The notes under the pieces: model-generated
Seen by the model: the letters and a program-made list of their open reading frames with translations, nothing else
What the model was told of the DNA's origin: nothing
Databases searched by the model: none
Program-made: the position numbers and the translations under genes
Virus record (IMG/VR): IMGVR_UViG_3300001815_000318
Location: 1-26,666 of that record
DNA length: 26,666 bases
Source: a virus
Strand: one strand, 5' to 3'
Shown here: one piece after another, positions 5,475 to 24,939 of the stretch
Layout of the letters: the number at the start of each line of letters is the position of its first letter
Numbering within the stretch: position 1 is the stretch's first letter

Positions 5475-6800
5475 ATGGCGAGGAAGGGTCAGCTCCAGTT
5501 CGTGGATCTCTTCGCCGGTCTCGGCGGGTTCCATGCTGGACTAGAGCGACTCGGCCACCGGTGCGTCCTCGCTTGCGAGAAGGACGAGCGTCTCCGGGAG
5601 CTCTACCGCCAGAACTATGGCATGGAACCTGTCGGCGACATTCGCGATCTAGACGTCGATGATGTCCCGCGGCACGACATTCTGTGCGCGGGTTTCCCGT
5701 GCCAACCATTCTCCAAAGCTGGTGAGCAACTTGGCTTGGTCTGTGAGCGCGACGGGGATCTATTCGAGGAAATCCTGAGAATCTTGGATCACCGGCGTCC
5801 GAAGTGGCTCGTTCTGGAGAACGTAGCGAACCTGCTCAGGCATGATGCCGGCGACACCTACACCTGGATGAAGGACGAGTTGGCTTCCCTCGGGTACGAG
5901 GTCGATGAACGTGTCCTATCTCCACATCGATACGGAATCCCACAGATCCGAGAGCGGGCTTTCATTGTTGGTTCACTCGACGGCCTTGAGCAGTTTTACT
6001 GGCCTGAGCCTCACGACACGCGCCCAGACATCCGAAGCGTGCTCGATCACAAGCCTGCCGAAGCACGCCGCATACCCGATCAATACTTGGATTGCCTGAA
6101 CGTCTGGCAGGAGTTTCTCGATCGCATTCCGGCTGAAGAGCCTCTCCCGTCATTCCCCATCTGGACGTTCGAGTTCGGCGCAACGTACCCGTACTCCGGG
6201 CCACCGCCACTGCTCAGAGATCCTCGCTATCTCGCCAGGACACGAGGGTCCTTCGGGCAATCGCTCAAGGGGCTCTCAGAGGCTGAAAGACGCCAGCGAC
6301 TTCCCAGCTATGCCCGCGGCTCTGCTCCGTTTCCCAAGTGGAAACAGACGTTCATTGCGCAAAACCGAGCGTTCTTTGAGAGGCATCGCCGAAGACTAAA
6401 GCCTTGGCTTAAGAAGCTTGAACCATTCACCCCCAGCCTTCAAAAACTTGAGTGGAACTGTAAGGGCGAAGTGCGCCGACTAGACAACCACGTCCTTCAA
6501 TTCCGTGCATCAGGTGTGCGGGTTAAGCGGTCGAACTGGGCACCTGCCCTTGTGGCCATGACGACGACACAGGTACCCGTGATTACCTGGGAGCACCGGT
6601 ACATGACCGTTCGAGAATGCTCGCGACTTCAGGGACTTGGCGAGATCGACCTGTCACAATTGAGTTCGACGAGTGCATACAGAGCAATTGGCAATGCTGT
6701 CAGTGCGGACATTGTCGAGATGATTTGTGCCGCGTTGCTCAAGACTGGAAACCAAGGACGGACTCCCGTCCGGGAACACTCCCGCTTAGTGGGAGCGTGA
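5475..6800 (+). CDS. DNA (cytosine-5-)-methyltransferase of R-M locus (441 aa)
   Basis: It transfers a methyl group from S-adenosylmethionine to C5 of cytosine. All signature motifs are visible: motif I D-L-F-A-G-L-G-G (11-18), motif IV with P-C-Q (catalytic C76), motif VI E-N-V (115-117), motif VIII Q-I-R-E-R-A (157-162), a long target-recognition region (~185-370), motif IX R-E-C-S-R-L-Q-G and motif X A-I-G-N-A-V. I chose ATG 5475, just before motif I, with AAGGGA 4 bases upstream; an in-frame ATG at 5427 would overlap the preceding gene by 11 bases and is possible. It converges on the DUF4420 nuclease gene with a 15-base tail overlap. It is clearly the self-protection arm of the restriction locus; its target sequence cannot be read from sequence. 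Base composition is more AT than the flanks. Confidence 0.95.
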   Translation: MARKGQLQFVDLFAGLGGFHAGLERLGHRCVLACEKDERLRELYRQNYGMEPVGDIRDLDVDDVPRHDILCAGFPCQPFSKAGEQLGLVCERDGDLFEEILRILDHRRPKWLVLENVANLLRHDAGDTYTWMKDELASLGYEVDERVLSPHRYGIPQIRERAFIVGSLDGLEQFYWPEPHDTRPDIRSVLDHKPAEARRIPDQYLDCLNVWQEFLDRIPAEEPLPSFPIWTFEFGATYPYSGPPPLLRDPRYLARTRGSFGQSLKGLSEAERRQRLPSYARGSAPFPKWKQTFIAQNRAFFERHRRRLKPWLKKLEPFTPSLQKLEWNCKGEVRRLDNHVLQFRASGVRVKRSNWAPALVAMTTTQVPVITWEHRYMTVRECSRLQGLGEIDLSQLSSTSAYRAIGNAVSADIVEMICAALLKTGNQGRTPVREHSRLVGA

Positions 6801-6803
6801 GTC
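6761..6803. terminator. nested inverted repeats at convergent gene ends (possible bidirectional terminator)
   Basis: Several short inverted repeats lie where the methyltransferase and the nuclease operon meet tail to tail: TCCCG/CGGGA (6764-6775), CACTCCC with GGGAGCG (6777-6783 and 6791-6797, one mismatch), and outer GACTC/GAGTC (6761-6765, 6799-6803). There is no U-tract on either strand, so factor-independent termination is uncertain. Confidence 0.3.
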
Positions 6804-7781
6804 GGTGCACGTTAGTGCAGCAGAAATCAGGCCAGCGGGCGTCGGGGGATCGCCTCGCCAAGCCTGTCCAAGGCTGAAATCCGATGTGAATCGAGCTCGG
6901 ATCACACCCGCTGGCAGATTGCCGATCTGAGGCACATCTCCAACCGGGTAAACCTCAAGGGTCGAGAGCGCCTTAGCCATATCAAAGCTGATCTCACGGG
7001 CCATCTGCCAATCTCTCCCGAGTGCCCGAATGCACTCTGCATCTATCCTCGCTTGGGAATCGGGCGCGAGCGCGAGAGCCCGATCCCAAAGTGTGCCGAC
7101 ACTGGTCCCTTGTGAGACCTGCTCCGTCATGATGGACACGAATGCCGCGGCGACGCCGGGGGGCGGAGATACTTGGCTCGACGCAAGTTCGTGTTGTCGC
7201 TGAACTGAGGTCGTCGCCTTGACATCCAGTCGCTCGGTCTCCGATCCAAAGTCGTACCGCGATCCCGAATGACTTCGCCAATGCTGTGCGAGGTACGCTG
7301 GATCTGGGCTGTGCACAATCAGAAGCAGTTCTGCCCAGAGACCGAGGATCTGGGCGTCACCGGCGTACGAGTAATCCCTGAAAAGATCAAGAAGCCTCTC
7401 GACCACCTCGCCGAGTGACTCCTGGTCTGCCTTCGTGCCATCAACCAGGACGCCACCGACAGCACGGATGAATAACGACACTGTCGCATCGTCTTGGACA
7501 AGGCACTCAAGAAGGCTGACGGTTTCCTCGTGAGTATCCCCGTCATCAATGGACACTCGAACCCCGTGTCGCACCCGCAGTAGTGGTAACGAGACTGCGG
7601 GATGACCATGTCGCTCGGCTGACGTCGCCAATAGAAAGGCAACCCCGCAGTGCGTGTTTCGTCCAATCCACCCGACTTCTTCGCCACCCGGAAGCGGACG
7701 AACGGTAAATCCAAACTGATCGTGCTCCGCCCTCGGCTGGATCGACTCGACTATCTGGATGAGCGAATCAAACGTGTTCAT
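6786..7781 (-). CDS. PD-(D/E)XK motif protein, DUF4420 family (331 aa)
   Basis: This is the candidate nuclease subunit of the restriction system. The ATG at 7781 overlaps the TGA of the Z1 gene (ATGA), which fixes the start. The nuclease core is at ~145-190: E151 in G-L-W-A-E-L-L-L, D177 in R-Y-D-F-G-S, and D186-V-K188 in L-D-V-K-A-T, giving the E...D...DxK pattern of the fold. The N-terminal half (strand-rich, ending with an H-E-E-T type motif and a long helix) and the F-R-D-Y spacer agree with DUF4420, a family I know from loci with Z1 and MORC-like ATPases. It would cleave DNA lacking the methylation made by the convergent methyltransferase. The 3' end overlaps that gene by 15 bases. Confidence 0.9.
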   Translation of the reverse strand: MNTFDSLIQIVESIQPRAEHDQFGFTVRPLPGGEEVGWIGRNTHCGVAFLLATSAERHGHPAVSLPLLRVRHGVRVSIDDGDTHEETVSLLECLVQDDATVSLFIRAVGGVLVDGTKADQESLGEVVERLLDLFRDYSYAGDAQILGLWAELLLIVHSPDPAYLAQHWRSHSGSRYDFGSETERLDVKATTSVQRQHELASSQVSPPPGVAAAFVSIMTEQVSQGTSVGTLWDRALALAPDSQARIDAECIRALGRDWQMAREISFDMAKALSTLEVYPVGDVPQIGNLPAGVIRARFTSDFSLGQAWRGDPPTPAGLISAALTCTDSRSH

Positions 7782-10024
7782 TGAGCAGCCTGACCCTGAC
7801 GGATCATCGGGCGATTGACCCGCTCGCCCAGCCACAGCGCGAGAACCGGAACACGGGCCTCGATCACTTCGCGATCAGTGGCCGAGGCGGCGTCGCTACC
7901 GTGGCCTATGTCGAAGCAGTGCAACTGAAGCGTGACGTCGTCGAGATGGACCTCGCGGTCACCGGAGTAGGCGTACGGTGGTCGGCCTGGATGGGCACCT
8001 GCAAAGACTTGCTTGATGCGTCCGGTTTCATCAACACCGCGGAAGGGTTCAGACTCGGGTCGCATTATGATCACATTGGCCGCCAAGTCCTCGTGCTCGT
8101 CGAGGGCATTCGCAATCATCGACATAGCGACTTGCCACTGCGTGTGTTCCTCGGGATCTGGGAGAACCACGCCGGCCAGAACCCGCTCATAGAACTCCTT
8201 TAGCGGAATATCGATCTGTCCAGTGTGCCGATGATCATTCCTGATCCCGCTGGAGTCTTCGATCCAAGGCGCTTCGGTGAACATCAGCAATTCTGCTCTC
8301 GATGCAACAAACTCATGCACCAGAGCCCCGTTCTCCCGGCACCGCTGCACTCGCTCCAGAGTCCCCGCTTGAGGGAGCCAGCCCTTACGGAGTATGTAGC
8401 GAGTCGGGTTATCGACAAGCACCGCCGGACGTGTCGGCCGGAGTAAGGCGTCGAGCTCAAATTCCCGTGGAATCGTTGGCTCCGCCAAGCGGTGGCGATT
8501 GCGCTCGAGAAAGCCGCGCATGCTTCGCTCGTGTCGCACGTACACGGAGAAGGCCCGCCGAGAATCTGGGCCTAGGTAAATCCGGCACAGATCCTCGTAA
8601 CCCCGCTTGTATCCGAAGAACCGGGCTCTTTGCTGAATAGTGTCGGCTTGACCGGTCCCGATGTCTCTCGGCATATATGTGACCGTCAGACCTTCGACGG
8701 TGAAGCCGCGGTCGAGGTTCTGTCCGCCAACGAGAATCCACGAATAGGTCTGCCCCCACTCTGTTGACCAATCGGTACGATCGACTCCCGGCCGAGCATT
8801 CACCTCCCGGACCTGTGTATGTCCGATCGCTTCGGGGAGCATCTCAGCCAACTCGTCAAACTCGGCGAGTTCCTCATTCGTATCCGTGCCGGCCAGGTCT
8901 GCGTACGCCTCCTGGAAAGCCGCCAATTGAAGTGGGCGATCGTGCTCATCGCCGATCTCTCTACACCAAGAGGCCATTGCCATTCGAATCCGATCCGCAA
9001 AGAACTGGTGGCTGTTCTGTGATCGGGACGGGTGCACCATCATCGATCGGTTGGACGGCACAGGAAGCTCGCCCGTTCGACGTTCGTTGACAAGTCCTTG
9101 TGCTACTCCCAAAAAAAAGACTCGCATCGCCTTGAACAGCGATGGCGGGGCCTCGAGCAGATCATCGCACATCTGCAGGTCATTCTGCGAGATACCGCGG
9201 ACTAGGTCATCCTCGCGCTCGACGAACACTCGATGCCCGCCCACATAGCCGTCTCCGGGCTCCAGCGGCTCACAGAAGCTCGGAGACAGGCGATCCCATA
9301 GAGGAATAAAGACGTTCGCCTGTGGCGTGGCCGTGTACTGCAGATAGGTGTGTCGCGGAGCACGATCGCGGAGACCGAGGATCTGGGAGTAGTTGGCGCT
9401 TTCTCCGTTCTGATTCACCTGAGTATTCAACGAAATCTGGTCGGCTTCATCATCGATGATCAGCATCGGCGAAGCCGAGTCACCCAGCGCCTCTATCAGC
9501 GCTCCGAGGTTCTGGACGTGCCGATGGTGCTTCAGCGAGGTGAGTAGCAGCGTCTTTGGCCGTCCGTTGTCCCATCCTGCGAGAGCGGTATTGAGTTCAT
9601 GCAGTTGAGCGGTCGTCGGATTGTGCGCGCGATGCCATGGACGTCGAAAGTTCGCGCCAATGTCGAGATCTTTCGCGAGTCGGTCCTTGTTCTGATCCGC
9701 GAGATTGAGAGACGACCCCGCGATCACGGCGACGCAACGGAAGCCATTGTCATGAGCTGCGGCTGCCACAGATGTGAACGACAGTGTCTTGCCGCTCTGA
9801 ACGTAGCCGACCACAAGCCCAGTACTGTTGGCTTCGTCTGAGTCTGGCACGGGACTGACGCACTGTCGCAGAATTCGGATTGTGGATTCTCGTACCGCGC
9901 GTCTCGCGAGGGGGTCATCGGGGAACTTCGCATTGAGGAGGCGCTCGAGTTCCTTGCCGACTGTGGGTTCCCACCGTTCGCCACTCGGTCCCAATACCCT
10001 CGCCTCGGCATTGCCGTTACTCAT
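7778..10024 (-). CDS. Z1-domain superfamily 2-like NTPase (748 aa)
   Basis: This is a helicase-like ATPase thought to move or remodel DNA for the restriction complex. Walker A is G-Y-V-Q-S-G-K-T (73-80), Walker B is I-I-D-D-E-A-D (~189-195), and a motif III-like T-A-T-P-Q-A-N follows at 231-237. Later, G-G-Q-N-L-D-R-G-F-T and Q-Q-R-A-R-F-F-G-Y-K are the characteristic Z1 elements corresponding to helicase motifs V and VI. The length is normal for the family. It overlaps the ATPase gene upstream (ATGA at 10021-10024) and the DUF4420 gene downstream (ATGA at 7778-7781), so the three subunits are translationally coupled in the order ATPase, Z1, nuclease. Codon use is less GC-biased than in the phage-like genes to the right. 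Confidence 0.95.
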   Translation of the reverse strand: MSNGNAEARVLGPSGERWEPTVGKELERLLNAKFPDDPLARRAVRESTIRILRQCVSPVPDSDEANSTGLVVGYVQSGKTLSFTSVAAAAHDNGFRCVAVIAGSSLNLADQNKDRLAKDLDIGANFRRPWHRAHNPTTAQLHELNTALAGWDNGRPKTLLLTSLKHHRHVQNLGALIEALGDSASPMLIIDDEADQISLNTQVNQNGESANYSQILGLRDRAPRHTYLQYTATPQANVFIPLWDRLSPSFCEPLEPGDGYVGGHRVFVEREDDLVRGISQNDLQMCDDLLEAPPSLFKAMRVFFLGVAQGLVNERRTGELPVPSNRSMMVHPSRSQNSHQFFADRIRMAMASWCREIGDEHDRPLQLAAFQEAYADLAGTDTNEELAEFDELAEMLPEAIGHTQVREVNARPGVDRTDWSTEWGQTYSWILVGGQNLDRGFTVEGLTVTYMPRDIGTGQADTIQQRARFFGYKRGYEDLCRIYLGPDSRRAFSVYVRHERSMRGFLERNRHRLAEPTIPREFELDALLRPTRPAVLVDNPTRYILRKGWLPQAGTLERVQRCRENGALVHEFVASRAELLMFTEAPWIEDSSGIRNDHRHTGQIDIPLKEFYERVLAGVVLPDPEEHTQWQVAMSMIANALDEHEDLAANVIIMRPESEPFRGVDETGRIKQVFAGAHPGRPPYAYSGDREVHLDDVTLQLHCFDIGHGSDAASATDREVIEARVPVLALWLGERVNRPMIRQGQAAQ

Positions 10025-11592
10025 TCGTCGCCTCCATTAGTGCGGCGCGAGAGGGATGACCTCAGCAACTCATTGGCATTCCGGCGCAGTTCGCCAGGGC
10101 CGCAACTCCCGCCGCTGAACCTCGCAAGTACCTCCGCCAGACCGAACGCTGCAGCCAATCGAAGGACCGGCTCGAGGCTCTCCTGTTCATCAAGCCTGAC
10201 CATCCTCCGCATGAACGGGCTGGCGAGGTTCACCCGGAGCCCGACACGCCGAGTCCGCAGCGCCTCGTTCTGATCACAAGCGATTTCTAGCCAGTCCGTC
10301 GCACCCTCAGAATTCGATAATTCGACCGTCACGCTCCACTCGCCTCCGTTCGCGTGGATCGCAAACTCCCGATGCTCGATAGCCGCTTCCTCATCCTCAG
10401 GTAAGGCCGCTGGAGGCTCGGGCGCCGTAGCAGTCGTTGCGCCTACGCGTGACAAGTCTTCGGCGCCGTGGTTCGTCAACGCCGTTACGACTCCAGAGAC
10501 CGCGTTGCTCGTAGCACGGGATGTGCCGGATCGTGTCGGACGCCCGCTTCGGTAGTTTCGCGCCTGTTTAAGGAGAGGAAGTGGTTCTTCGTCTAGTGCA
10601 CTACGTAGTCGCTCCAAGAACTGATCCTCAGCATCGCCCCAGCGAAAGCCATCCTTCGTGTGCGACACATCAAAGTCGTCCATGTGAAGCTCGCCCCACA
10701 CGCGTTGCGACTCATACGTGTTACCACTGCCGAAGATCTCGGGCGGCCGATACTTCTCGTCGCCTGTGCCGATGATCGCTCGATTCCGACGGAAAAGACA
10801 GAGGCCGGCTCGACGGGTGTCACCCCGGGCGAGCAGCCCTGCCTCGCCGCAAACCACACGGCCGTCATCAAGTTCGAATGCGATGGACTTTCGCCACGAT
10901 ACAGGCTCACCATCTGGTTCGTTCTGTACGCCATAGCGAGATGCGACGAGCGACTCTGGCTCAACGTACGTCAAGGCCTCGCCGGAGGACAGGCCCGACG
11001 CCCCGGGCACTCGTAGCTCTAGGAGTTGATCGCGGATAAAGCAGCGATAGATGTCGGAGAGGTGATCACGGATCTTTCCGAGCGTGCGACCCTGCGGAAC
11101 CTGGTACACGTTGCGAAGCGTGATCCGCGTGAAGTGGTCGGAGGGATCACACGGTACGGTCTCGATGTCCAGTTCATCGATGCGGTCCTCGATGATCTTG
11201 TCGATGTTGAAGTAGATACGGCGCTCTACTGGCTCCCCGATTGCACTCGTGTGAACGTCCCACATGGGAGCGAACCAGCAAGAAGCGCTCTTCATCCCCA
11301 TGCCAAACTGACTGAGCCCCCTCGCATTCTGCGGAGGCTCAGCGGGCCGGAACGCACGTGCGATGTCGGATTCGGCAATGCCGCCGGCGTTGTCTGTGAT
11401 CACGATCGTCTTATCGAGACGGTCAATCTCGATGGCCACAGACAGCGTGGCTCCCGGTCGAAGACGGTCGCGAGACGACAGAAAGCTCTGCGCCGCGTTG
11501 TCGACATATTCCGCCAAGGCGTACCAAGGCTTGTACTCCAGGTGACGGAGCACGGCAAGAATATTGACGCCCGGTCGGATTCCAACTCTCAT
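10021..11592 (-). CDS. MORC/MutL-like GHKL ATPase of R-M locus (523 aa)
   Basis: This is an ATP-dependent clamp-type protein and the first gene of the restriction operon. The GHKL (histidine kinase/HSP90-like) fold is marked by the N-box A-E-Y-V-D-N-A (E28, D31, N32), the D-N-A-G-G-I box (67-72) and the glycine lid G-L-S-Q-F-G-M-G-M-K-S-A-S (92-104). The F-R-P-A segment before the lid and the S-Q-F-G-x-G pattern are typical of the bacterial MORC-related group rather than MutL proper. The C-terminal ~200 residues are less conserved and probably mediate dimerisation or partner contacts. The ATG at 11592 has no clear ribosome site. The gene is divergent from the XRE gene across a 120-base gap that may hold both promoters. 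Confidence 0.93.
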   Translation of the reverse strand: MRVGIRPGVNILAVLRHLEYKPWYALAEYVDNAAQSFLSSRDRLRPGATLSVAIEIDRLDKTIVITDNAGGIAESDIARAFRPAEPPQNARGLSQFGMGMKSASCWFAPMWDVHTSAIGEPVERRIYFNIDKIIEDRIDELDIETVPCDPSDHFTRITLRNVYQVPQGRTLGKIRDHLSDIYRCFIRDQLLELRVPGASGLSSGEALTYVEPESLVASRYGVQNEPDGEPVSWRKSIAFELDDGRVVCGEAGLLARGDTRRAGLCLFRRNRAIIGTGDEKYRPPEIFGSGNTYESQRVWGELHMDDFDVSHTKDGFRWGDAEDQFLERLRSALDEEPLPLLKQARNYRSGRPTRSGTSRATSNAVSGVVTALTNHGAEDLSRVGATTATAPEPPAALPEDEEAAIEHREFAIHANGGEWSVTVELSNSEGATDWLEIACDQNEALRTRRVGLRVNLASPFMRRMVRLDEQESLEPVLRLAAAFGLAEVLARFSGGSCGPGELRRNANELLRSSLSRRTNGGDE

Positions 11593-11642: not shown

Positions 11643-11672
11643 TTGACCCGCCGGTTATGTGCAGGATATCCT
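11643..11672 (+). promoter_or_regulatory. candidate sigma-70 promoter of the XRE-ImmA unit
   Basis: TTGACC (11643-11648) and TATCCT (11667-11672) are separated by 18 bases, with the XRE ATG 40 bases further down. The -10 box lies inside a large palindrome, which fits autorepression. A similarly good match for the divergent restriction operon was not seen. Confidence 0.5.
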
Positions 11673-11678
11673 AAACAT
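11657..11678. promoter_or_regulatory. 22-bp interrupted palindrome, candidate XRE operator
   Basis: The core AGGATATCCT (11663-11672) is a perfect 10-bp palindrome. Its flanks ATGT (11657-11660) and ACAT (11675-11678) are also symmetric about the same centre; only two positions per half do not pair. It covers the -10 box of the XRE promoter and lies between divergent units, so binding by the XRE protein could control one or both. Confidence 0.5.
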
Positions 11679-11712
11679 CGCCCCCTGTCCGGGTCAAGGC
11701 GAGCACGACCGC

Positions 11713-12078
11713 ATGAGCGACCCCCTCCAGCATTTCGGTTCCGTCCTTCGCGAACGGCGGCTCGAGAAGGGCTTCAGCCTGCGGAAGTTCGCCGAGTTGG
11801 TGGACATCAGCCCGACGTACCTGTCGCTCGTCGAAACCGGGAAGGCGGAGTACGCCCCCGCCGCCGAGCGCGTCCGCAAGATGGCCGAGGTGCTGGGCGC
11901 CGACCCGGATCACTGGATCGCGCTGGCCGGCCGCATGCCCGAGGACGTCAAGAACATCATCCTCAAGGATCCGGAGCAGATGCCGGCGCTGCTCCGTGCC
12001 GCGAAGAACCTCACCCCCGAGCAGCTCAAGAAGCTGATCGCCGACGCAGAGCGCAAGGGCAAGGGGGCCGAGGACTGA
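11713..12078 (+). CDS. XRE-family transcriptional regulator (121 aa)
   Basis: This is a DNA-binding repressor or activator. The five-helix HTH covers ~residues 7-65 with F-S-L-R-K-F-A-E-L-V-D-I-S-P-T-Y-L-S-L-V-E as the recognition region (21-41). A charged C-terminal helix (~75-121) ends in Lys/Glu/Asp. I chose ATG 11713 over upstream GTG 11659 because the latter falls inside the operator and the promoter -10 box lies at 11667-11672; AAGGCGAG at 11698-11705 could serve as ribosome site. The stop shares a base with the ImmA start (TGATG). Pairs of XRE regulators and ImmA/IrrE peptidases normally work together: the peptidase cleaves the repressor on a signal and releases the operon. Confidence 0.9.
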   Translation: MSDPLQHFGSVLRERRLEKGFSLRKFAELVDISPTYLSLVETGKAEYAPAAERVRKMAEVLGADPDHWIALAGRMPEDVKNIILKDPEQMPALLRAAKNLTPEQLKKLIADAERKGKGAED

Positions 12079-12785
12079 TGGCCTCCGGATCGCACCAGAA
12101 GCATCGCGTGAAGTTCCTGCACGAGAAGCAGATCGAGCGGGAGGCGAAGCTCCTGCTCGACGAGTGGGCGGAGAAGGGCCACGAGATCACCGTGCCGATC
12201 CCGCTCGATGAGCTGGTCGAGATTCACCTGCAGTTGCCGTTCGAGATCGTGGATCTGCGGTCGCAGTTCGGTGGGCACGATGTCATGGGCGCCATCTGGT
12301 TCGACGACGGCACGATCCGCATCGACGCCTCGCTCGACCCGCACGAATACCCGCACCTGCGCGGGCGCTACAACTTCACCGTTGCGCACGAGGTGGGCCA
12401 TTGGCGGCTGCACCGTTCGCAGCTGCTCGACGACCCGAACGAGCGGACGCTCTTCGAGTCCGGCAGCAAGCCCGCGTTCGTGTGCCGCGATGGCGACAGC
12501 GTGCCCGAAGAGTGGCAGGCGAATGCGTTCGCGGGGTGCTTGCTGATGCCCCGCGAGCTGGTCTTCGACGAGTGGCACGCGTGGCGCGGTGCCGATGCGC
12601 CCGTGCCGGACGCGGATCTGGACGTCCGACCCCTCGCCCGCAACCAGAAACGAGATGTCGAACTCGCCCGCGAGGCGCTGTGCAAGCCGCTGGCGGAGAG
12701 GTTCGAGGTGTCCGCGCACGCGATGCGGATCCGCCTGGAGAACCTCGGGCTGTTCGTGAAGGAGATCGAACCCGGGCTGTTCTGA
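12078..12785 (+). CDS. ImmA/IrrE family metallopeptidase (235 aa)
   Basis: This is a zinc peptidase expected to cleave the partner XRE repressor. The active-site helix is A-H-E-V-G-H-W (HEVGH 104-108: zinc ligands H104 and H108, catalytic E105). The third-ligand region E-E-W-Q-A-N-A-F-A-G-C-L-L-M-P (~145-160) is the usual second signature of the family. The N-terminal ~90 residues include an I-P-L-D-E-L-V-E-I helix and a strand pair that lead into the protease core; the C-terminus adds a helical segment of the sort often seen as a signal-sensing extension. TGATG links it to the XRE gene. After its stop, a 66-base gap with a weak hairpin and an inverted repeat precedes the next gene. Confidence 0.93.
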   Translation: MASGSHQKHRVKFLHEKQIEREAKLLLDEWAEKGHEITVPIPLDELVEIHLQLPFEIVDLRSQFGGHDVMGAIWFDDGTIRIDASLDPHEYPHLRGRYNFTVAHEVGHWRLHRSQLLDDPNERTLFESGSKPAFVCRDGDSVPEEWQANAFAGCLLMPRELVFDEWHAWRGADAPVPDADLDVRPLARNQKRDVELAREALCKPLAERFEVSAHAMRIRLENLGLFVKEIEPGLF

Positions 12786-12823
12786 CAGGGCGCGTTGCCC
12801 TCTCTATTTGCCCGGAGTGTTTA

Positions 12824-12838
12824 CTGTCCACGGGACAG
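12824..12838. promoter_or_regulatory. perfect inverted repeat CTGTCC-ACG-GGACAG, candidate operator
   Basis: The two 6-bp arms (12824-12829 and 12833-12838) are exact complements around a 3-base spacer, 14 bases upstream of the ATG at 12852. A TTTACT at 12820-12825 is a possible -10 element, with TTGCCC at 12795-12800 as a weakly placed -35 (spacing 19). It suggests an internal promoter controlled by a dimeric regulator. Its sequence differs from the palindrome before the XRE gene, so the regulator need not be the same. Confidence 0.4.
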
Positions 12839-12851
12839 AAAGGTATGAGTC

Positions 12852-14036
12852 ATGGCCAAGGCCTTTGACCCCCGCAAGGTGCTCAAGCAGATCGCCAACC
12901 CCCTCCTCCGCGCGTTCTTCGAGCGGCGCGGGGAGCTGACGGAGATCACATGGGATGAACTCACCGAGCACAAGATCGAGCCCGTCTTCGAGGCGTGGCA
13001 GGCGCTGCCCGAGCGCCAGCGGCAGGAGGTGCAGGTCATCCTGCGCGATATCAACGAGCTGGCGGACCACCGCGGCATGGCGGTCCTGGCCGAGGAGATC
13101 CTTTGGCGCGATGCGACCATGGCCGAGGACTTCAAGGCCCAGGCGAGCAAGCAGGACAAGGCGATGTGGGTTTACCTGCACCTGCCCGAGGCGTTCACCG
13201 AGGGCGCGATGTTCGCGCGGGCGGACAGCCTCGCCGCCGGCCGGCATTGGAAGCGGCGGAACAGCCTGCCGAAGGTGCCGCTCGAGGTGACGCCCGAGAT
13301 GCTCGAGCGGCTCAGCGATGCGCTCACCGCCTTCTACGGGCCCAAGCAGATGCGCGGTCGCTGCTGCAAGGTGGTCCACTACCGCCGCCAGGGCGGGGCC
13401 GATTACTTCTTCGCGTATCTGGACGACTACCCGGACAAGCACATCGTGTTCGACGCCGACAGCGATGAGCCCGTGGTGCGGTCGGACCGCTACGCCTTCG
13501 AGAACGTCTTCGTGTACAACGCCGATGACGGGTCGATGGAGGTGTTCGCGCAGGGCGGCAAGCCGGTCTGGGAGCCGCTGCAGCTCGCGTTCTGCAAGGC
13601 GGTGCTGGGCCGGGATGTGGACCCGGCCGACCCGCTGAGGCCGACCTTCAAGCTCGACCATCTGCTCAGCCCGGACTTCCCGTTGGCCGTCGAGGCAACA
13701 GACGGCGTCGAGGACGCTCGCATCACGCAGATGCGCATCGCGCCCCGCGGCAGCGGCGGCTGGGTCGAGATCAAGGCCGACCCCAAGGCCTCGCCGAACG
13801 ACATCTACCGCAAGTTCGAGCGGTGGCTGCGCACGGAGAACGTCACGGCCGAGGGCGCAAAGGTCCTGTCGGCCTCGGTCGCGATGCGGTTCCGGCACGA
13901 CGGTCCGGGCCGGGCGCCCACGCTTCGGTTCAGCGTCTCGGCGCCGAACTCGAGCAACCTCAAGAGCAAGCCGGACGAGCATCGGGCCGTCGGCGAGCGG
14001 TGCCTGCGGCGCTGGGGGGTGACCGATGACCAGTGA
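12852..14036 (+). CDS. unassigned protein X of XRE-ImmA unit (394 aa)
   Basis: This is a clear real gene by codon bias, starting at ATG 12852 with AAAGG 8-9 bases upstream. I do not recognise the family. The N-terminal ~145 residues are helical and charged, with W-D-E-L, an E-R-Q-R-Q-E-V segment, and W-V-Y-L-H-L-P. A middle region (~150-270) is mixed alpha/beta with C-C-K-V-V-H-Y-R-R and Y-F-F-A-Y-L-D-D-Y-P-D-K-H, which has the look of a compact enzymatic or ligand-binding core. The C-terminal ~110 residues are strand-rich with repeated R-x-S-V-S-A type strands and a conserved-looking D-I-Y-R-K-F-E-R-W. There is no signal peptide or membrane segment. It overlaps the next gene by 11 bases, so the two are probably partners. 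Confidence 0.85.
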   Translation: MAKAFDPRKVLKQIANPLLRAFFERRGELTEITWDELTEHKIEPVFEAWQALPERQRQEVQVILRDINELADHRGMAVLAEEILWRDATMAEDFKAQASKQDKAMWVYLHLPEAFTEGAMFARADSLAAGRHWKRRNSLPKVPLEVTPEMLERLSDALTAFYGPKQMRGRCCKVVHYRRQGGADYFFAYLDDYPDKHIVFDADSDEPVVRSDRYAFENVFVYNADDGSMEVFAQGGKPVWEPLQLAFCKAVLGRDVDPADPLRPTFKLDHLLSPDFPLAVEATDGVEDARITQMRIAPRGSGGWVEIKADPKASPNDIYRKFERWLRTENVTAEGAKVLSASVAMRFRHDGPGRAPTLRFSVSAPNSSNLKSKPDEHRAVGERCLRRWGVTDDQ

Positions 14037-15513
14037 GGCGGTGATGCGACTACTGCTCGCCGCGGCCGATGACCTCGGCCGCACCTTCGACCACCGCGAC
14101 CTGAGCGAGTGGCCCCCGGGGTCACTCCAGGTCTTCCAGAAGCTCGGCGTGGTCCGCCGGTCCGCCGGCGGCCTGACCGCCTCGTGCCCGAGTTGTGACG
14201 ACGGGCACATCGAGGTCGTGGCCGAGCGGCCCGGTCCCGACGGCCAGACGAGGCTTTACATTTACTGCCCGGAGCAACTCCGTCTCGAGGTCACTGCCGA
14301 GATGTGCCAGGGCTGGGAGGTCAACCCGGACGGGCTGGCCGCGTGCGTCGCAGCCGGGCTGGGCCTCAAGGGCACGCCGAAGGCCGTGGTGCCCAACCGG
14401 CTCTGGCGAATCGGCCGGATCCCGTGCGACGGCACGACCCGCGAGGTCGTGTTCGCCGTGCGGCTCGGCGAGGCCGACGCGGCCTCTGTCATGGCGCATG
14501 TTGGGGTAGGCGGGCGGGCGATCGTGGTCGTCCCTCGCCTCGTCCCAGACGACCGGATCTGGCCGGGGCGGGTCCCGGCGGTCGTGCCTCTGGACCGCGT
14601 GGGCGAGCTCGATGCCGACCAGTTCGTCGTCGATGGCGCTGCGTTCATGGAGATCATCGCTGAGACGGACGCGATCGCTGAATCCAAGAGCCTCCTCCCG
14701 GTTGACCCCCAGGTGAAGAAGCAGGTCATCCGCAAGCAGCTCAAGGCCGAGATCAAGGGCCATCTCAACGACGACGTGCTCATCGCTGCTCGGATAACGC
14801 ACGGCTCGACGAGAAAGGCCGCCACCGCGTTGACGCAGCAACTGGGTCGGACGGTGTCCAAGGACCAAGTCCAGCGTGCCATCAACCGCGCTGGTGGGCT
14901 GGACGCGATCTCGGAACTCGATGACTCGAACTCTGTCGCCCGGACTGTCGCGTCGCAAAGCCGCGACAGGGCAAAGAAAATTGAGCAGTACCGCTCAGTC
15001 CGTCATTCACAGCGCCTTGCGGACTTCGGGGCGGGCCGTCGGCTCGCCCTTTTTCTTGCGCCATCCGCGACACCACAGCCCGCGTCCGAGGCCGGTCAGC
15101 TCATAACCGGCCAGTCAGCGGACGCACCTGTGATCCTCGCCGCGCGTGCGGCGACACAGTTCCACGACTGTGCGGACCTGCCGACTGGCGGTGAGCCAGA
15201 CCTCCGGCCTCGGAGGTTTCGATGGCAACCTGCCACGACGTCGTCACGCACACGTTCACCGTTGACTTCATCCGCATCAAGGCCCGCCAGCTCTGCCGCC
15301 GGTCCGACGTGTCCCGCTCGGACCAGGATGACATGCAGCAGGAGATGCGACTGTACCTGTGGAAGAAGGCTCATCTCTTCGATCCCGGCCGCGGCAATGT
15401 CGAGGCATTCGTCACCACGGCGATCAACAGCTGGGTCGGCATGCACCTCCGCGGTCTTGATCGGATCAAGCGCCGCAACGAGGCGACCGCGATCTCGCTC
15501 GAACGCACGCTGA
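14026..15513 (+). CDS. unassigned protein Y with zinc-knuckle and HTH (frame open to 15513; true end probably before 15030)
   Basis: The ATG at 14026 lies inside the end of protein X. Recognisable coding runs to about residue 310. Near residues 49-85 C-P-S-C and a later Y-C-P-E could bind zinc. Residues ~245-290 contain an HTH-like segment with S-T-R-K-A-A-T-A-L-T-Q-Q-L-G-R-T-V-S-K-D-Q-V-Q-R-A-I, preceded by a helical linker. Beyond ~335 the frame crosses a strong terminator (15029-15057) and then lies out of frame on the sigma-like gene, where it is Arg/Ser/Pro-rich shadow sequence. The real stop was probably lost by a frameshift or base error: the frame one base behind has stops at 14922 and 14982. 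A DNA-binding role is suggested by the HTH; the family is unknown to me. Confidence 0.65.
   Translation: MTSEAVMRLLLAAADDLGRTFDHRDLSEWPPGSLQVFQKLGVVRRSAGGLTASCPSCDDGHIEVVAERPGPDGQTRLYIYCPEQLRLEVTAEMCQGWEVNPDGLAACVAAGLGLKGTPKAVVPNRLWRIGRIPCDGTTREVVFAVRLGEADAASVMAHVGVGGRAIVVVPRLVPDDRIWPGRVPAVVPLDRVGELDADQFVVDGAAFMEIIAETDAIAESKSLLPVDPQVKKQVIRKQLKAEIKGHLNDDVLIAARITHGSTRKAATALTQQLGRTVSKDQVQRAINRAGGLDAISELDDSNSVARTVASQSRDRAKKIEQYRSVRHSQRLADFGAGRRLALFLAPSATPQPASEAGQLITGQSADAPVILAARAATQFHDCADLPTGGEPDLRPRRFRWQPATTSSRTRSPLTSSASRPASSAAGPTCPARTRMTCSRRCDCTCGRRLISSIPAAAMSRHSSPRRSTAGSACTSAVLIGSSAATRRPRSRSNAR
15029..15057 (+). terminator. strong intrinsic terminator ending the XRE-ImmA unit
   Basis: GGGCGGGCC (15029-15037) pairs with GGCTCGCCC (15041-15049) through one G-U wobble and a 3-base loop, followed by TTTTTCTT (15050-15057). 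This is a textbook factor-independent terminator and the clearest one in the window. It separates the regulator unit from the phage-like genes and lies within the formally open frame of protein Y. Confidence 0.85.
15201..15216 (+). promoter_or_regulatory. hairpin that sequesters the ribosome site of the sigma-like gene
   Basis: CCTCCG (15201-15206) and CGGAGG (15211-15216) are perfect complements around GCCT. The right arm is the GGAGG Shine-Dalgarno sequence of the gene starting at 15222, 5 bases away. In the RNA the site would be masked, which suggests that translation of the sigma-like factor is held down until the hairpin opens. Confidence 0.5.
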
Positions 15514-15803
15514 TCGAGAACGACGGTGATGTCACATCCCTCGGGTCCGTCATCACCGACGCCGATCGCGGCCGTCGGTATGACGCGGCATCACCGGACC
15601 CGGTCGAGTCGCACGATCTCCGCGAAGCAGTCGACCACGCGCTCGCTCAGCTGACGGGCGAGGACCGTTCGCTCTTGGAATGCATCGCCGAGCACGGCGT
15701 CTCGGCGGCGGCCCGCACGCGGAAGGTCTCGCGCCGGCAGATCTACAACGCGCTCGAACGCATGCGGTCGCGGTTCGAGAACGCCGGGCTTGGCTCTGTC
15801 TGA
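15222..15803 (+). CDS. sigma-70-like RNA polymerase factor (193 aa)
   Basis: This is probably a phage or element-encoded transcription factor. Residues ~32-85 resemble sigma region 2: D-Q-D-D-M-Q-Q-E-M-R-L-Y-L-W-K followed by F-D-P-G-R-G-N-V-E-A-F-V and a basic D-R-I-K-R-R. An acidic linker (~95-130) leads to a region 4-like HTH (~133-186) with L-T-G-E-D-R-S-L-L-E-C-I-A and S-R-R-Q-I-Y-N-A-L-E-R-M-R-S-R as recognition helix. The start is fixed by GGAGG at 15212-15216. It is the first gene after the strong terminator and likely directs expression of the downstream replication block. An alternative is a sigma-like regulator that does not form holoenzyme. Confidence 0.8.
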   Translation: MATCHDVVTHTFTVDFIRIKARQLCRRSDVSRSDQDDMQQEMRLYLWKKAHLFDPGRGNVEAFVTTAINSWVGMHLRGLDRIKRRNEATAISLERTLIENDGDVTSLGSVITDADRGRRYDAASPDPVESHDLREAVDHALAQLTGEDRSLLECIAEHGVSAAARTRKVSRRQIYNALERMRSRFENAGLGSV

Positions 15804-15950: not shown

Positions 15951-16256
15951 ATGAGAACGGACGTCTACCGCTTCTGCTTCGCTCGCTCGATCAACATGAT
16001 GGAGGCCGAAGCCACGCTCCAGCTTGCCATCCTCGCGAGCGAGGGGTTGTTCGGCGAGGCCCGGGTGCGGATCGAGGTCTCGTACCTGATCGACGCCCCG
16101 CGATGTGTGATCGTCGTGGATGGCGGGACACCTTCGGGCGTCGCGGTCGCGCGCATCTTCGCCGCGTTCCTCACTCGCGAGTTAGGAGCCGATGGATTCT
16201 CCGTCCGCGCCGTTCCCTCCCCGGCCCCCGTGTCTGCTGCCCGGTACGCAGCGTGA
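15951..16256 (+). CDS. small unassigned phage-type protein (101 aa)
   Basis: The ATG at 15951 has AGGAG 6 bases upstream, a better start than the ATG at 15915. The protein has two clear halves: an N-terminal helix (A-R-S-I-N-M-M-E-A-E-A-T-L-Q-L-A-I) followed by strands C-V-I-V-V-D and a second helix R-I-F-A-A-F-L-T-R-E-L. This is an alpha/beta two-layer pattern like an ACT- or ferredoxin-type fold, though I cannot assign it. It lies between the sigma-like gene and the exonuclease gene, with its stop overlapping a GTG start. A small accessory protein of the replication block is the best guess. Confidence 0.7.
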   Translation: MRTDVYRFCFARSINMMEAEATLQLAILASEGLFGEARVRIEVSYLIDAPRCVIVVDGGTPSGVAVARIFAAFLTRELGADGFSVRAVPSPAPVSAARYAA

Positions 16257-17236
16257 ACGGGGGGCGACGTTCTCATCAAGGCTCGAACCGGGCAGGAACG
16301 CCGCACGGCGCGCCCCTCGCCCGGCTCGGCCAGGGCGATTTCGAGCGTGAGATCCGGCCCGAGGACCTCGACGGATCCGAACGCCGGGCACACGAGATTG
16401 ACCTTGGCTTCCTGATTACCGAGCCGGCGTCGGTCTACCACGCGAAGGCCAAGGACAACCTGTCCTCGCACCAGCTCGCGGACTTCCGGCGATGCCCGAA
16501 GCTATATAGAAAGAGGCAACTCGGCCTCGTGCCCCAGCGGGGCTCCGCGGCGTACGCCCTTGGGCGGGCCGCCCACGTGCTCATCCTCGAGGGTCGGGAG
16601 CGTTTCGAGGCTGAGTTCGCGGTCGGCGGGCCGATCAACCCGAAGACGGGCCAGCCGTTCGGGACGCAGACGAAGGCGTTCGCGGAGTGGGCGGCGTCGG
16701 TCGGGAGGCCGGTGCTCAGCGACGCGGACGCGGCGCTGCTCGAGCAGATGCGCGCCGGCGTGCACGACCACGTGTTCGCCCGCGAGCTGCTGCGATCGGG
16801 CGTCGCCGAGGGCGTGGTGCGGGCCGAGTACGGCGGCGTGCCGTGCCAGGCGCGGGTCGATTGGATCAACCCCGTCGACGGCCGCGGCATCGTCGACCTG
16901 AAGACGTGCAGCGACCTCGACGAGTTTGAGCGCGACGTGCATCGCTACGGCTACCTCCACCAGATGGCCTTCTACCGCGAGTTGGTGGTCGAGGCTTGCG
17001 ACGTCGAGTTCGAGGTGCATCTGGTCGAGATCGAGAAGAGGGAGCCGTACCGCTGCGGCGTGTGGCAGCTTTCTCGCCGTCTGCTCGACCGCGCCGCCGA
17101 CGAGAACCTCGCCGCCATTGACGAGTTGACGCGCTGCCGCGAGCACGACATCTGGAAGACGCGGTTCGAGTCGCTGCGGCTGATCGATATCGACTCGCCG
17201 GCCCCCTCATCAACCCACCCACAGGAGCACACATGA
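16253..17236 (+). CDS. PD-(D/E)XK exonuclease, DUF3799/RecE-like (about 327 aa)
   Basis: This is the exonuclease that would resect double-strand ends for phage recombination. In GTG-start numbering the segments are: S-H-Q-L-A-D-F-R-R-C-P-K-L-Y (72-85), G-R-A-A-H-V-L-I-L-E-G (104-114), D203 in R-V-D-W, D215-L-K217 in I-V-D-L-K-T, and Q237-x3-Y241 in H-Q-M-A-F-Y. This is the motif order of RecE/Cas4-type nucleases. The start is uncertain because there is no ATG before residue ~166; I chose the GTG at 16253, which overlaps the upstream stop (GTGA). The first ~60 residues are atypical for the family, so initiation could be further in. The stop overlaps the ATPase ATG (ATGA). Confidence 0.85.
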   Translation: MNGGRRSHQGSNRAGTPHGAPLARLGQGDFEREIRPEDLDGSERRAHEIDLGFLITEPASVYHAKAKDNLSSHQLADFRRCPKLYRKRQLGLVPQRGSAAYALGRAAHVLILEGRERFEAEFAVGGPINPKTGQPFGTQTKAFAEWAASVGRPVLSDADAALLEQMRAGVHDHVFARELLRSGVAEGVVRAEYGGVPCQARVDWINPVDGRGIVDLKTCSDLDEFERDVHRYGYLHQMAFYRELVVEACDVEFEVHLVEIEKREPYRCGVWQLSRRLLDRAADENLAAIDELTRCREHDIWKTRFESLRLIDIDSPAPSSTHPQEHT

Positions 17237-18036
17237 GCCTGATGAAGCACATCGAGCGCGGTCGAGCCGCTCGCCCCCGCCGCGTCATGGTCTACGGGAC
17301 GCACGGCATCGGGAAGTCGACGTTCGGCGCGATGGCCGAGCGGCCAGTCTTCATCCAGACCGAGGACGGCCTCGCGGACATCGACGCCGAGCGGTTCCCG
17401 CTGGCGACGGAGTTCAAGCAGGTCATCGAGATGCTCGGGGCCCTGTACACCGAGGAGCACGAATACCAGACCGTCGTCATCGACAGCCTCGACTGGCTCG
17501 AGCGGCTGATCCACGCGAAGACCTGCCGCGACCGCGGCGTGAAGTCGATCGAGGACGTACCCTACGCGAAGGGTTACATCTTCGCCCTCGACGCGTGGCG
17601 TGAGGTTCTCGCCGGGCTCGACGCGCTCCGCTCCGACCGCGGCATGCAGGTGATCCTGATCGCGCACGCCGCGGTCGAGAAGTTCGCCAACCCCGAGACC
17701 GAGACGTACGACCGGTACGCGCCGCGGCTCAACAAGCACGCGTCGGCCCTCGTGCAGGAGTGGTGCGACGAGGTGATGTTCGCGAGCTACCGCGTGCTCA
17801 CCAAGAGCACGGACGAGGGCTTCAACCGCAAGCGTGTGCAGGGCATCGGCAGCGGCGAGCGGGTGCTCAAGACCACCGAGCGCCCGGCGCACGTCGCCAA
17901 GAACCGTCTCGGGCTTCCAGACGAGCTGCCGCTGGACTTCCGCGCGTACGCGGCCCACCGCGACGGCGAGGCGATCGACGCCATCACCGACACCACCGAC
18001 ACGAACGAGTCACCCACCACCAGGGAAGGAGCCTGA
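17233..18036 (+). CDS. phage RecA-fold ATPase, AAA_24/Sak4-like (267 aa)
   Basis: This is a DNA-recombination ATPase found in many phages. Walker A is G-T-H-G-I-G-K-S-T (22-30), Walker B is T-V-V-I-D-S-L-D-W (80-88), and Q-V-I-L-I-A-H-A forms the following strand and sensor. The protein has the single RecA-like core of the phage nucleotide-binding group, with no large extra domains; length is normal. AGGAG at 17222-17226 and the ATGA overlap fix the start at 17233. Being between an exonuclease and a DUF669 protein, it probably anneals or pairs single strands made by the nuclease. The Sak4 label is my inference from fold and order, not from a search. Confidence 0.85.
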   Translation: MSLMKHIERGRAARPRRVMVYGTHGIGKSTFGAMAERPVFIQTEDGLADIDAERFPLATEFKQVIEMLGALYTEEHEYQTVVIDSLDWLERLIHAKTCRDRGVKSIEDVPYAKGYIFALDAWREVLAGLDALRSDRGMQVILIAHAAVEKFANPETETYDRYAPRLNKHASALVQEWCDEVMFASYRVLTKSTDEGFNRKRVQGIGSGERVLKTTERPAHVAKNRLGLPDELPLDFRAYAAHRDGEAIDAITDTTDTNESPTTREGA

Positions 18037-18038
18037 GC

Positions 18039-18521
18039 ATGGCCAGTCTGAACGGATTCAATGCGAGCGATGTTGATCCCGCCGCCGACTTCGAGGCGGT
18101 CCCGCCCGGGGAGTACACCGCGGTCATCACCGAATCGGAAACCAAGCCCACGAAGGCGGGCACGGGCAGCTACCTGCAGTTCACGTTCCAGATCGTGGAC
18201 GGCGAGCACAAGGGCCGGCTGCTGTGGGCCCGTCTCAACCTCGACAACCCCAGCGAGACGGCGGTGAAGATCGCCCGCGGGCAGCTCTCGGCGCTGTGCC
18301 GGGCGGTCAACGTGCTCCAGCCGCGGGACTCGCTCGAACTCCACAACATCCCGCTGGTGATCAAGGTCGGCGTGAAGCGCCGCGAGGACACGGGCGAGTT
18401 CATGAACGAGGTGAAGGGGTTCGCGCCGCGCGGCGGTGCCGCTGGCGGCGCCCCGTCGAACAACGGCGTCGCCCCGCGTCCGGCTTCGACCGCCGGGAGC
18501 ACCCCGCCGTGGAAGCGTTGA
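18039..18521 (+). CDS. DUF669 family, single-strand-binding-like phage protein (160 aa)
   Basis: ATG 18039 has GAAGGAG 7 bases upstream. The sequence P-P-G-E-Y-T-A-V-I-T-E-S-E followed by Y-L-Q-F-T-F-Q-I-V-D-G-E-H-K-G-R and L-W-A-R-L-N-L is the pattern I know for DUF669, an OB-like beta-barrel family. The tail (~130-160) is a Gly/Pro/Ala linker ending in a short P-P-W-K-R tip, reminiscent of the flexible acceptor tails of SSB proteins, although the tip here is basic rather than acidic. It probably coats single-stranded DNA produced by the exonuclease and works with the RecA-fold ATPase. Confidence 0.85.
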   Translation: MASLNGFNASDVDPAADFEAVPPGEYTAVITESETKPTKAGTGSYLQFTFQIVDGEHKGRLLWARLNLDNPSETAVKIARGQLSALCRAVNVLQPRDSLELHNIPLVIKVGVKRREDTGEFMNEVKGFAPRGGAAGGAPSNNGVAPRPASTAGSTPPWKR

Positions 18522-18552
18522 TCGTTCACCTGCTGCGGAGGCGAGGCCACGG

Positions 18553-18951
18553 ATGGCTGACGCGACCGTGCATCTCACGCTGCCCTGGCCGCCGAGCGTC
18601 AACCGGTACTGGCGGTCGGTGCCGATGGGACGCGGCCGGGGCGTGCGGGTGCTGATAAGCCGCGAGGGCCGGGCGTTCCGCACGGACGCGGTCGCCCGGC
18701 TCGCGCGGTTCCGGCGGCGGGCGCCGCTGGCCGGCCGTCTCGATGTCCGCATCGAACTGTGCGCACCGACGCGTCGCGCCCTCGACATCGACAACCGGCT
18801 CAAAGCCCTGCTCGACGCCATGCAGCACGCCGGCGTCTACCGCGACGACGGCCAGATCGACCGGCTGCTGATCGAGCGGGGCCCCGTGACGCGCGGCGGG
18901 CTGGTGCATGTCGCGATCGAACCACTGAACACGGAGACAGCCGCGGCATGA
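18553..18951 (+). CDS. rusA: RusA family Holliday junction resolvase (132 aa)
   Basis: This is an endonuclease that resolves branched recombination intermediates. The N-terminal strand T-L-P-W-P-P-S-V-N-R-Y-W is the classical RusA opening. The catalytic acidic residues are D78 and D80 in L-D-I-D-N-R, and D99 in Y-R-D-D-G-Q-I-D; the D80-D99 spacing of 19 equals the D72-D91 spacing of E. coli RusA. Start ATG 18553 places the opening motif at residue 9. The longer upstream frame overlaps the DUF669 gene and is not needed. The stop overlaps the helicase ATG (ATGA). Confidence 0.93.
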   Translation: MADATVHLTLPWPPSVNRYWRSVPMGRGRGVRVLISREGRAFRTDAVARLARFRRRAPLAGRLDVRIELCAPTRRALDIDNRLKALLDAMQHAGVYRDDGQIDRLLIERGPVTRGGLVHVAIEPLNTETAAA

Positions 18952-20654
18952 AGCTCAGGGCGTACCAGCAGGAGGCGGTGGACCGGGTGTACGCGTACCT
19001 CCGCGAGCGGGACGACAATCCGTGCGTCGTCATTCCGACGGGCGGGGGCAAGACGCCGGTGATCGCGACGATCTGCCGCGACGCCGTCGAGCTCTGGAAC
19101 GGGCGCGTGCTAATCCTCGCGCACGTGAAGGAGCTGCTCGAGCAGGCTGTCGAGAAGATCCGGGCGATCGGGCCCGACCTGCCGCTGGGCGTCTACTCGG
19201 CGGGGCTCAAGCGGCGGGACACCGAGTACGCGGTCACCGTCGCTGGCATCCAAAGCGTGTGGAAGCGGGCGTGCGACCTGGCCAACGGTGGCGGCGCGTT
19301 CGACCTGATCCTGATCGACGAGGCGCACATGGTGCCCGCCGAGGACGACGGGATGTACCGGCGGTTCATCGCCGACATGCAGCGGATCAACCCGCATGTC
19401 CGGATCGTCGGCCTGACCGCGACGCCGTACCGGCTCAAGACCGGCGAGATCTGCGGCGCTGACAACATCCTGAACGAGGTGTGCTACGAGGTCGGCGTCC
19501 GCGAGCTGATCGCCCAGGGGTACCTATCGCCGCTGCGCACGAAGGCCGGGGCGACGAAGGCCGACACCGCCGGCCTGCACGTCCGCGCGGGCGAGTTTGT
19601 CGCCGGCGAGGCCGAGGACCTGATGGACGACGATGTCCTCGTCGAAGGCGCGTGCGCCGAGATCGCCGAGGAGACCCGCGACCGCGCAGCCACGCTGATC
19701 TTCGCGACTGGTATCAAGCACGGGCGGCACATCGAGTCGGTGCTGCGCGAGCGGCACGCGATCGAGTGCGGCTTCGTATCGGGCGACACTCCGGCCGGCG
19801 AGCGGGCCGAGATCCTGGACCGGTTCCGCTCGGGCGAGTTGCGGTGCCTCGCGAACGTGAACGTGCTCACGACCGGGTTTGACGCCCCACACATCGATTG
19901 CGTGGCGCTCGTGCGGCCGACGATGAGCCCGGGGCTGTACTACCAGATGGTCGGGCGGGGATTCCGGCTGCACCCCGGTAAGGACGACTGCCTGGTGCTC
20001 GACTTCGGCGGCAACGTGCTGCGGCACGGGCCCGTCGACGCGGTGCGCGTGGCGACCGACGACCGTGGCGAGGGAGGAGAAGCGCCGGCCAAGGAGTGCC
20101 CGTCGTGCCGGGCGTTGATCGCGGCGGGCTACCAGACCTGCCCCGAGTGCGGGCACGAGTTCCCGCCGCCGAACCGGTCCAAACACGAGGCGCGGGCGTC
20201 GGACGAGGGCATCCTCACCGGGCAGGTCACGCGCTCCGAGCACGACGTCACGGACACCACGTACCACATCCACTGGAAGAAGCACGACCCCGGGGCGGCG
20301 CTCACGATGCGCGTCGAGTACGAGGTCGGCATCGGGCAGGTGTTCCGCGAGTGGATCTGCTTCGACCACGAGGGGTACGCGCGAACCAAGGCCGAGGCGT
20401 GGTGGCGGGCGAGGTCGATCGAGCCCGTTCCCGACTGCGTCGAGGAAGCGGTCGAGCTCGCGAAAGCCGGGGCGCTAGCGCCGACGCACGCGATCACCGT
20501 CGAGAAGAAAGCCGGTGACAAGTTCGACCGGGTCGTGCGGCACCGGCTCGGTGACAAGCCGCCACCGCTGGACGACCCGGACGCGGCGCCCGCGTGCTCA
20601 ACACCCGCCGCCGAGGCTTGGCGTGACATTCCGCTAGATGAGATCCCGTTCTGA
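18948..20654 (+). CDS. superfamily 2 DEAH helicase with zinc ribbon (568 aa)
   Basis: This is a phage replication or recombination helicase. Motifs: Q-like L-R-A-Y-Q-Q-E-A (3-10), Walker A I-P-T-G-G-G-K-T (29-36), D-E-A-H (124-127), T-A-T-P (157-160), N-V-L-T-T-G-F-D near ~305, and motif VI Y-Q-M-V-G-R-G-F-R (~331-340). A four-cysteine zinc ribbon C-P-S-C ... C-P-E-C follows at ~383-402. The C-terminal ~160 residues include a beta-rich segment. It starts by ATGA overlap with rusA and ends TGATG with the primase, so RusA, helicase and primase are produced together. Confidence 0.95.
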   Translation: MKLRAYQQEAVDRVYAYLRERDDNPCVVIPTGGGKTPVIATICRDAVELWNGRVLILAHVKELLEQAVEKIRAIGPDLPLGVYSAGLKRRDTEYAVTVAGIQSVWKRACDLANGGGAFDLILIDEAHMVPAEDDGMYRRFIADMQRINPHVRIVGLTATPYRLKTGEICGADNILNEVCYEVGVRELIAQGYLSPLRTKAGATKADTAGLHVRAGEFVAGEAEDLMDDDVLVEGACAEIAEETRDRAATLIFATGIKHGRHIESVLRERHAIECGFVSGDTPAGERAEILDRFRSGELRCLANVNVLTTGFDAPHIDCVALVRPTMSPGLYYQMVGRGFRLHPGKDDCLVLDFGGNVLRHGPVDAVRVATDDRGEGGEAPAKECPSCRALIAAGYQTCPECGHEFPPPNRSKHEARASDEGILTGQVTRSEHDVTDTTYHIHWKKHDPGAALTMRVEYEVGIGQVFREWICFDHEGYARTKAEAWWRARSIEPVPDCVEEAVELAKAGALAPTHAITVEKKAGDKFDRVVRHRLGDKPPPLDDPDAAPACSTPAAEAWRDIPLDEIPF

Positions 20655-24936: not shown

Positions 24937-24939
24937 CGG

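Follow-up and report, generated by a model that had tools for sequence, protein, structure and literature searches.

A probable lysogeny and induction control region with exchangeable defence genes in a prophage family of Phycisphaerae

What do an XRE regulator, an ImmA/IrrE-type peptidase and two unassigned proteins, X and Y, do side by side in one stretch of viral DNA? The stretch, hereafter the window, is a viral record of 26,666 bases (IMG/VR IMGVR_UViG_3300001815_000318). A first-pass annotation had put the four genes forward as a possible undescribed unit. We find that the locus is probably the control point of a large prophage family in Phycisphaerae bacteria. With a probability of about 0.7, this region governs lysogeny and induction of a serine-recombinase prophage; XRE-ImmA would act as a damage switch over X-Y, and defence genes would share the repressor promoter region. 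The switch is of a known type. Its coupling to defence cargo is unusual and recurrent, two of its proteins are unnamed, and an undescribed RNA follows them. Coordinates and profile matches are given in Table 1.

The regulator and the peptidase with its HEVGH motif, both named in the first-pass annotation, were recovered by profile searches (HTH_3, Peptidase_M78), and the pair looks like the proteolytic kind of damage switch that had been supposed. CapH/CapP are a damage-responsive repressor and protease associated with CBASS, the cyclic-oligonucleotide-based anti-phage signalling system (Lau et al. 2022, as described in PMC13373217), and control adjacent immune operons (PMC13373217). Like them, the window pair consists of a small helix-turn-helix (HTH) repressor matching capH and an adjacent M78 protease with HExxH matching capP, with an immune operon alongside. 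Unlike them, it also precedes the phage early genes X-Y, and CBASS is not at the locus. ImmR/ImmA are the repressor and antirepressor protease that govern induction of the mobile elements ICEBs1 and TnSmu1 (PMC10233336). The window pair likewise lies in a mobile element, ahead of X-Y and early genes, and by analogy may govern its induction, but it has other targets and is replaced by different regulators in some sister prophages.

We compared 86 distinct X loci. As 10 contigs end too early upstream, 76 were judged on that side; 72 have enough sequence downstream. Read from the sequence, XRE-ImmA precedes X at 41 distinct loci. The four-gene order thus recurs as had been expected, and the arrangement is therefore not a matter of chance. 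At five loci (L009, L015, L021, L023, L098), a divergent sigma/small/M78 (ImmA) set is found instead; at L009 and L021, type I restriction-modification (R-M) genes lie 3' of the M78 protease on the same strand. Strain ZRK34 (CP050848) has this divergent sigma/ImmA arrangement. One locus has a divergent XRE/M78 (ImmA) pair upstream of X. At two others, LexA directly before X replaces XRE-ImmA (L125, with Peptidase_S24 at 1.1e-33 and LexA_DNA_bind at 2.8e-19, and L148, assigned by similarity). Altogether, XRE-ImmA is replaced or not recognised in its usual place at 35 of the 76 loci, and Y adjoins X at 69 of the 72. Hence X-Y is the constant pair, and a reading of the four genes as one self-contained unit is not supported. 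Because the exchange is among protease-linked or self-cleaving regulators, it suggests that X-Y is the regulated target and damage the likely trigger; a damage-induced target fits, since each replacement set includes either an M78 protease or a LexA-type repressor that cleaves itself.

Phage early genes follow X-Y in the same direction at all 29 XRE-ImmA loci with >4 kb downstream. Their order is sigma-like gene, small protein, DUF3799 exonuclease-like, AAA_24, DUF669-like, RusA-like, helicase and primase, where the labels DUF669-like, RusA-like and helicase were read from the sequence rather than taken from profile results. As X-Y usually stands first in the phage early operon, we regard it as an early element module and not as a pair of defence effectors. 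Of the two roles first proposed for X and Y, that of element-induction factors fits, and that of defence effectors is not supported. Wherever contigs extend far enough, DUF2924, a serine recombinase and an HTH gene lie upstream of the locus. Relatives of X occur in viral contigs and genomes; among the nine named, eight are Phycisphaerae or other Planctomycetota and one is a metagenome-assembled genome of Nevskiales. X is present in 39 of 298 genomes of the class Phycisphaerae, and tblastn searches of INPHARED phages with X and with Y gave no match.

Gene order, exchange of regulators, defence cargo, promoter layout and both couplings of cassette to repressor are read from the sequence; repression, cleavage, damage sensing and the roles of X and Y are inferred. 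The switch would work as follows. XRE (CapH/ImmR type) would repress the promoter ahead of X and probably also that of its own gene. DNA damage would activate ImmA (CapP/IrrE type), perhaps through single-stranded DNA, and ImmA would cut XRE. Cleavage would release X-Y and then the early replication and recombination genes. X and Y would act jointly and early, as a regulator or a DNA-processing factor. The defence genes, sharing the XRE promoter region, would be expressed alongside the repressor in the lysogen, like rexAB with cI in lambda.

X is probably a DNA-binding protein. All 35 X members searched matched phrog_37634, a family of unknown function. The AlphaFold models are usable, with a predicted local distance difference test (pLDDT) score of 81 for X and 82 for Y. 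The X model weakly resembles CENP-N, CENP-L, Iml3 and RdgC, with VIA Z of 5.1-7.9 overall and 6.0-7.9 for the RdgC/CENP-N fold, where Z <8 can mean merely a common arrangement. Foldseek matches to CENP-N and RdgC are likewise weak (E 1.9e-4 to 4.6e-3). Chl4/Iml3 (CENP-N/L) had been noted as resembling RdgC (PMC4080450). The modelled resemblance is a lead. X differs from these proteins in an additional N-terminal helical region and in sequence, and the RdgC family PF04381 gave no Pfam match to X at E<=1. A PF04381 search of three genomes carrying X-Y returned nothing. In BFVD, X found two uncharacterised phage proteins, both at low TM-score (E 7e-5 and 3e-4). A profile search against PDB sequences proposed lectins for X (best E 3.6e-5), but these were short partial matches to unrelated proteins and were judged spurious.

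Y is probably the partner that gives DNA specificity, with its zinc and HTH parts. Residues C54, C57, H61 and C81 are invariant, and the C-terminal ends are of several kinds, swappable among relatives. A few members weakly matched HTH families, and residues 246-288 of the model superpose on a transposase HTH (1.8 A over 43 residues). VIA and Foldseek gave no clear fold for Y, an absence that is not evidence. A designed repeat protein found for Y by the PDB-sequence profile search (E 4e-4) was a short partial match, judged spurious. The annotated 11-base overlap of X and Y is present (X to 14036, Y from 14026) and measures 11 or 14 bases in most relatives. The open frame of Y does not end near 15057, the right edge of the annotated unit. 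Its normal stop is lost (codon 324, 14995-14997, is TCA), and the frame stays open to 15513, passing the terminator and the leader and entering the sigma-like gene at 15222. In 21 relatives, complete Y ends at 306-325 amino acids with the conserved tail ...VASQxRDRxKK.... The stop loss may be real or a contig error.

X and Y could also serve in replication or recombination instead of regulation, X as an RdgC-like DNA/RecA modulator and Y as an origin- or site-binding partner. This is compatible with the control-region reading, and we hold it possible at somewhat below even odds. X-Y precedes the exonuclease, AAA_24, RusA, helicase and primase genes, Y has exchangeable C-terminal domains, and the proteins that X resembles had already been described as a structurally related group; the low fold scores of X and its lack of sequence match to RdgC speak against it. 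None of the profiles searched identified X or Y as a known structural or replication protein of phages.

The defence genes lie directly upstream of the repressor. The closest known counterpart of the divergent operon of the window is MORC-Z1 restriction-modification or Mza-type defence. Iyer et al. reportedly described a MORC-Z1 restriction-modification system in 2008. The likeness lies in a GHKL ATPase, a Z1 helicase, a DUF4420 nuclease and a DNA methyltransferase beside XRE. The difference is that the ATPase matched no PADLOC model; its position is that of MzaB in the relative L014. That the unit adjoins defence genes holds in most relatives, beyond the window alone. In most loci tested, the upstream cassettes matched PADLOC families (type I R-M, Hma/DUF499, Ssp, Mza, PLD helicase and others); for some loci, the second cassette gene supplied the protein that was searched. 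At the thresholds used, the cassettes of L011, L128, L159 and L164 had no PADLOC match.

XRE has its own promoter with the embedded palindrome that had been annotated, and 2 promoter-like sites were observed in this region against 0.3 in shuffles. In the window, the promoter mirrors that of the divergent operon. The same mirror promoter (TTGAC...GTCAA, 52-55 bases, overlapping -10s) occurs in 14 of 16 loci with a divergent neighbour, the window counted, and in none of 21 with a co-directional one. The two spacers agree between strands, mostly as 17/17, as 18/18 in two 55-base versions and as 16/17 in one. Where the neighbour is co-directional, its stop lies -4 to 102 bases from XRE in 20 of 21 loci; the exception is L045, with 540 bases and a recombinase module. 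From these layouts, two couplings of cassette to repressor emerge, a symmetric bidirectional promoter or apparent co-transcription. In lambda, rexAB is expressed with cI, and cI-rexAB forms a lysogenic-conversion operon. The window family is analogous in linking defence genes to repressor expression and differs in that the cassette type varies freely and is linked by a bidirectional promoter or runs into XRE. RexAB-type prophage defence has been described (PMC12894663), and PMC12825309 and PMC10268837 present pseudo-symmetric promoters driving divergent transcription as a known bacterial form.

The inverted repeat annotated before X was found, a candidate repressor operator. Taken alone, it reaches p=0.08 only; comparable perfect repeats of 6-8 bp recur near the same position in relatives (L003-L007, L010, L014, L016, L020, L090). 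The terminator held to close the unit is there as well, and many relatives have hairpins at that position.

The close tie between the cassette and the XRE promoter or operon, together with the capH/capP profile matches, raises a second alternative. Here XRE-ImmA would be a true CapH/CapP that chiefly controls the defence cassette, and its phage use for X-Y would be second-hand. We think this less likely than not, since the cassette type varies between phages, XRE-ImmA and X-Y retain phage synteny, and operator-like repeats stand ahead of X. Least probable is a self-contained anti-phage system with X and Y as effectors freed by repressor cleavage, which would suit the control of immune operons by CapH/CapP (PMC13373217), the defence genes bordering most relatives and the cas, DUF499 or AAA-subtilase genes beside some deep X-Y pairs, but not the consistently co-directional early genes, the lack of any PADLOC profile matching X or Y, or the swapping of XRE-ImmA while X-Y stays.

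Several points weigh against the control-region reading. The promoter calls follow the E. coli sigma-70 consensus and may not hold in Planctomycetota. For the mirror promoter, the contrast of divergent with co-directional loci (Fisher p = 2e-8; shuffled rate 0.18%) draws on 37 related loci, and the p is not a true probability. We rejected a locus-specific operator shared between the site before X and the XRE promoter, as the match within loci was no better than between loci (p=0.66). At 27 loci, nothing upstream of X was recognised. Some deep X-Y pairs (L129, L133, L136, L137) lie outside this phage type. These distant pairs stand by cas3/cas4-cas1, an AAA-subtilase pair, or DUF499 with a DNA methyltransferase.

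Table 1 Features of the locus and its surroundings in the window
Feature	Position	Strand	Match or detail
C5-cytosine DNA methyltransferase	5328..6800	+	DNA_methylase 2.9e-64
DUF4420 PD-(D/E)XK nuclease, defence operon	6786..7835	-	DUF4420 5.3e-10
Z1-domain helicase, defence operon	7778..10024	-	Z1 9.5e-41; Helicase_II 1.6e-50; MzaC 1.9e-24
GHKL (MORC-type) ATPase, first gene of divergent defence operon	10021..11592	-	HATPase_c_3 6e-13
XRE promoter	11643..11672	+	TTGACC-18-TATCCT; palindrome AGGATATCCT at 11663-11672
Symmetric bidirectional promoter	11643..11697		TTGACC-18-TATCCT (XRE, +); TTGACC-18-TAGGAT (R-M operon, -); -10s overlap at palindrome 11663-11672
XRE, CapH/ImmR-like HTH repressor	11713..12078	+	HTH_3 1.8e-13; PADLOC capH 1.2e-10
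ImmA, CapP/IrrE-like M78 metallopeptidase	12078..12785	+	HEVGH; Peptidase_M78 6.2e-11; PADLOC capP 1.1e-18
Inverted repeat, candidate repressor operator before X	12824..12838		CTGTCCACGGGACAG
X, 394 amino acids, likely DNA-binding	12852..14036	+	phrog_37634; weak RdgC/CENP-N-like fold
Y, N-terminal zinc CxxC...H...C part and HTH	14026..14994	+	conserved end ~14994, open frame to 15513
Intrinsic terminator after Y	15028..15056	+	hairpin 15028-15050 and T run
Conserved pseudoknotted leader RNA of sigma-like gene	15065..15224	+	
Leader pseudoknot helix	15083-15088:15119-15124		
Other leader helices	15089-15095:15204-15210, 15099-15102:15193-15196, 15111-15116:15183-15188		plus a hairpin
Shine-Dalgarno-like site in leader	15212-15216		GGAGG
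Sigma-70 region 2-like gene	15222..15803	+	Sigma70_r2 1.3e-6
Phage early operon	16103..22870	+	DUF3799 exonuclease-like, AAA_24, RusA-like, helicase, Prim-Pol; after X-Y in most relatives

The interval from Y to the sigma-like gene holds a conserved block of 160 bases with a pseudoknotted structure. Pairing in its pseudoknot helix reaches 97-98%, and two neighbouring pairs show changes on both sides. The structure stands above shuffled and slid controls on most measures, and the folding z of the window leader is -4.2. G-U pairs number 69 and A-C pairs 4, an excess that points to an RNA of the + strand and disfavours a coding sequence or a DNA site. Counts on an additional alignment, to which we give lesser weight, lean towards the structure model. 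A covariance model found 13 places in 12 of the 298 genomes, by coordinates all directly after an X locus. Rfam gave no match anywhere in the window at E<=1, the leader at 15065-15224 included, and, in four relatives, one weak unrelated match elsewhere than the leader. We considered an HDV-like (hepatitis delta virus-like) ribozyme for the crossed pseudoknot and set it aside, as inspection by eye showed neither P1.1 nor the catalytic C and nothing came from Rfam. Three leader bases can pair in the pseudoknot or alternatively towards the ribosome-binding site; hence it is a fair guess that the leader controls translation of the sigma-like gene. The genome of L138 has a second, broken prophage start (G172:C1 ~291000-294000), where X and Y are split across several frames and the leader RNA is recognisable.

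Elsewhere in the window, 23213-24538 encodes an N6/N4 methyltransferase fused to a ParB_N domain, a fusion that many relatives share, and 24553-25167 a Fic/Doc protein with a MazE-like antitoxin, likely a toxin-antitoxin pair. Left of the recombinase module, two genes on the minus strand (1-795 and 807-2498) had no Pfam match.

In its widest form, which we put forward tentatively as somewhat less than an even chance, the locus would define a widespread Phycisphaerae prophage group with a standard slot that plugs almost any defence system into lysogeny-repressor transcription, through the symmetric bidirectional promoter or co-transcription. The same repressor and protease would control a new early module of two proteins, the probably RdgC-like X and Y, a zinc protein whose DNA-binding ends can be swapped. 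Behind this module, a new pseudoknotted leader RNA would control a phage sigma-like factor. If true, this would amount to a concrete rule by which prophages carry defence genes open to exchange, with the cargo tied to repressor transcription and on in the lysogen. The link between defence cargo and induction would become testable, and two conserved unnamed phage protein families (X being PHROG 37634) and an undescribed structured RNA could be tested within one operon.

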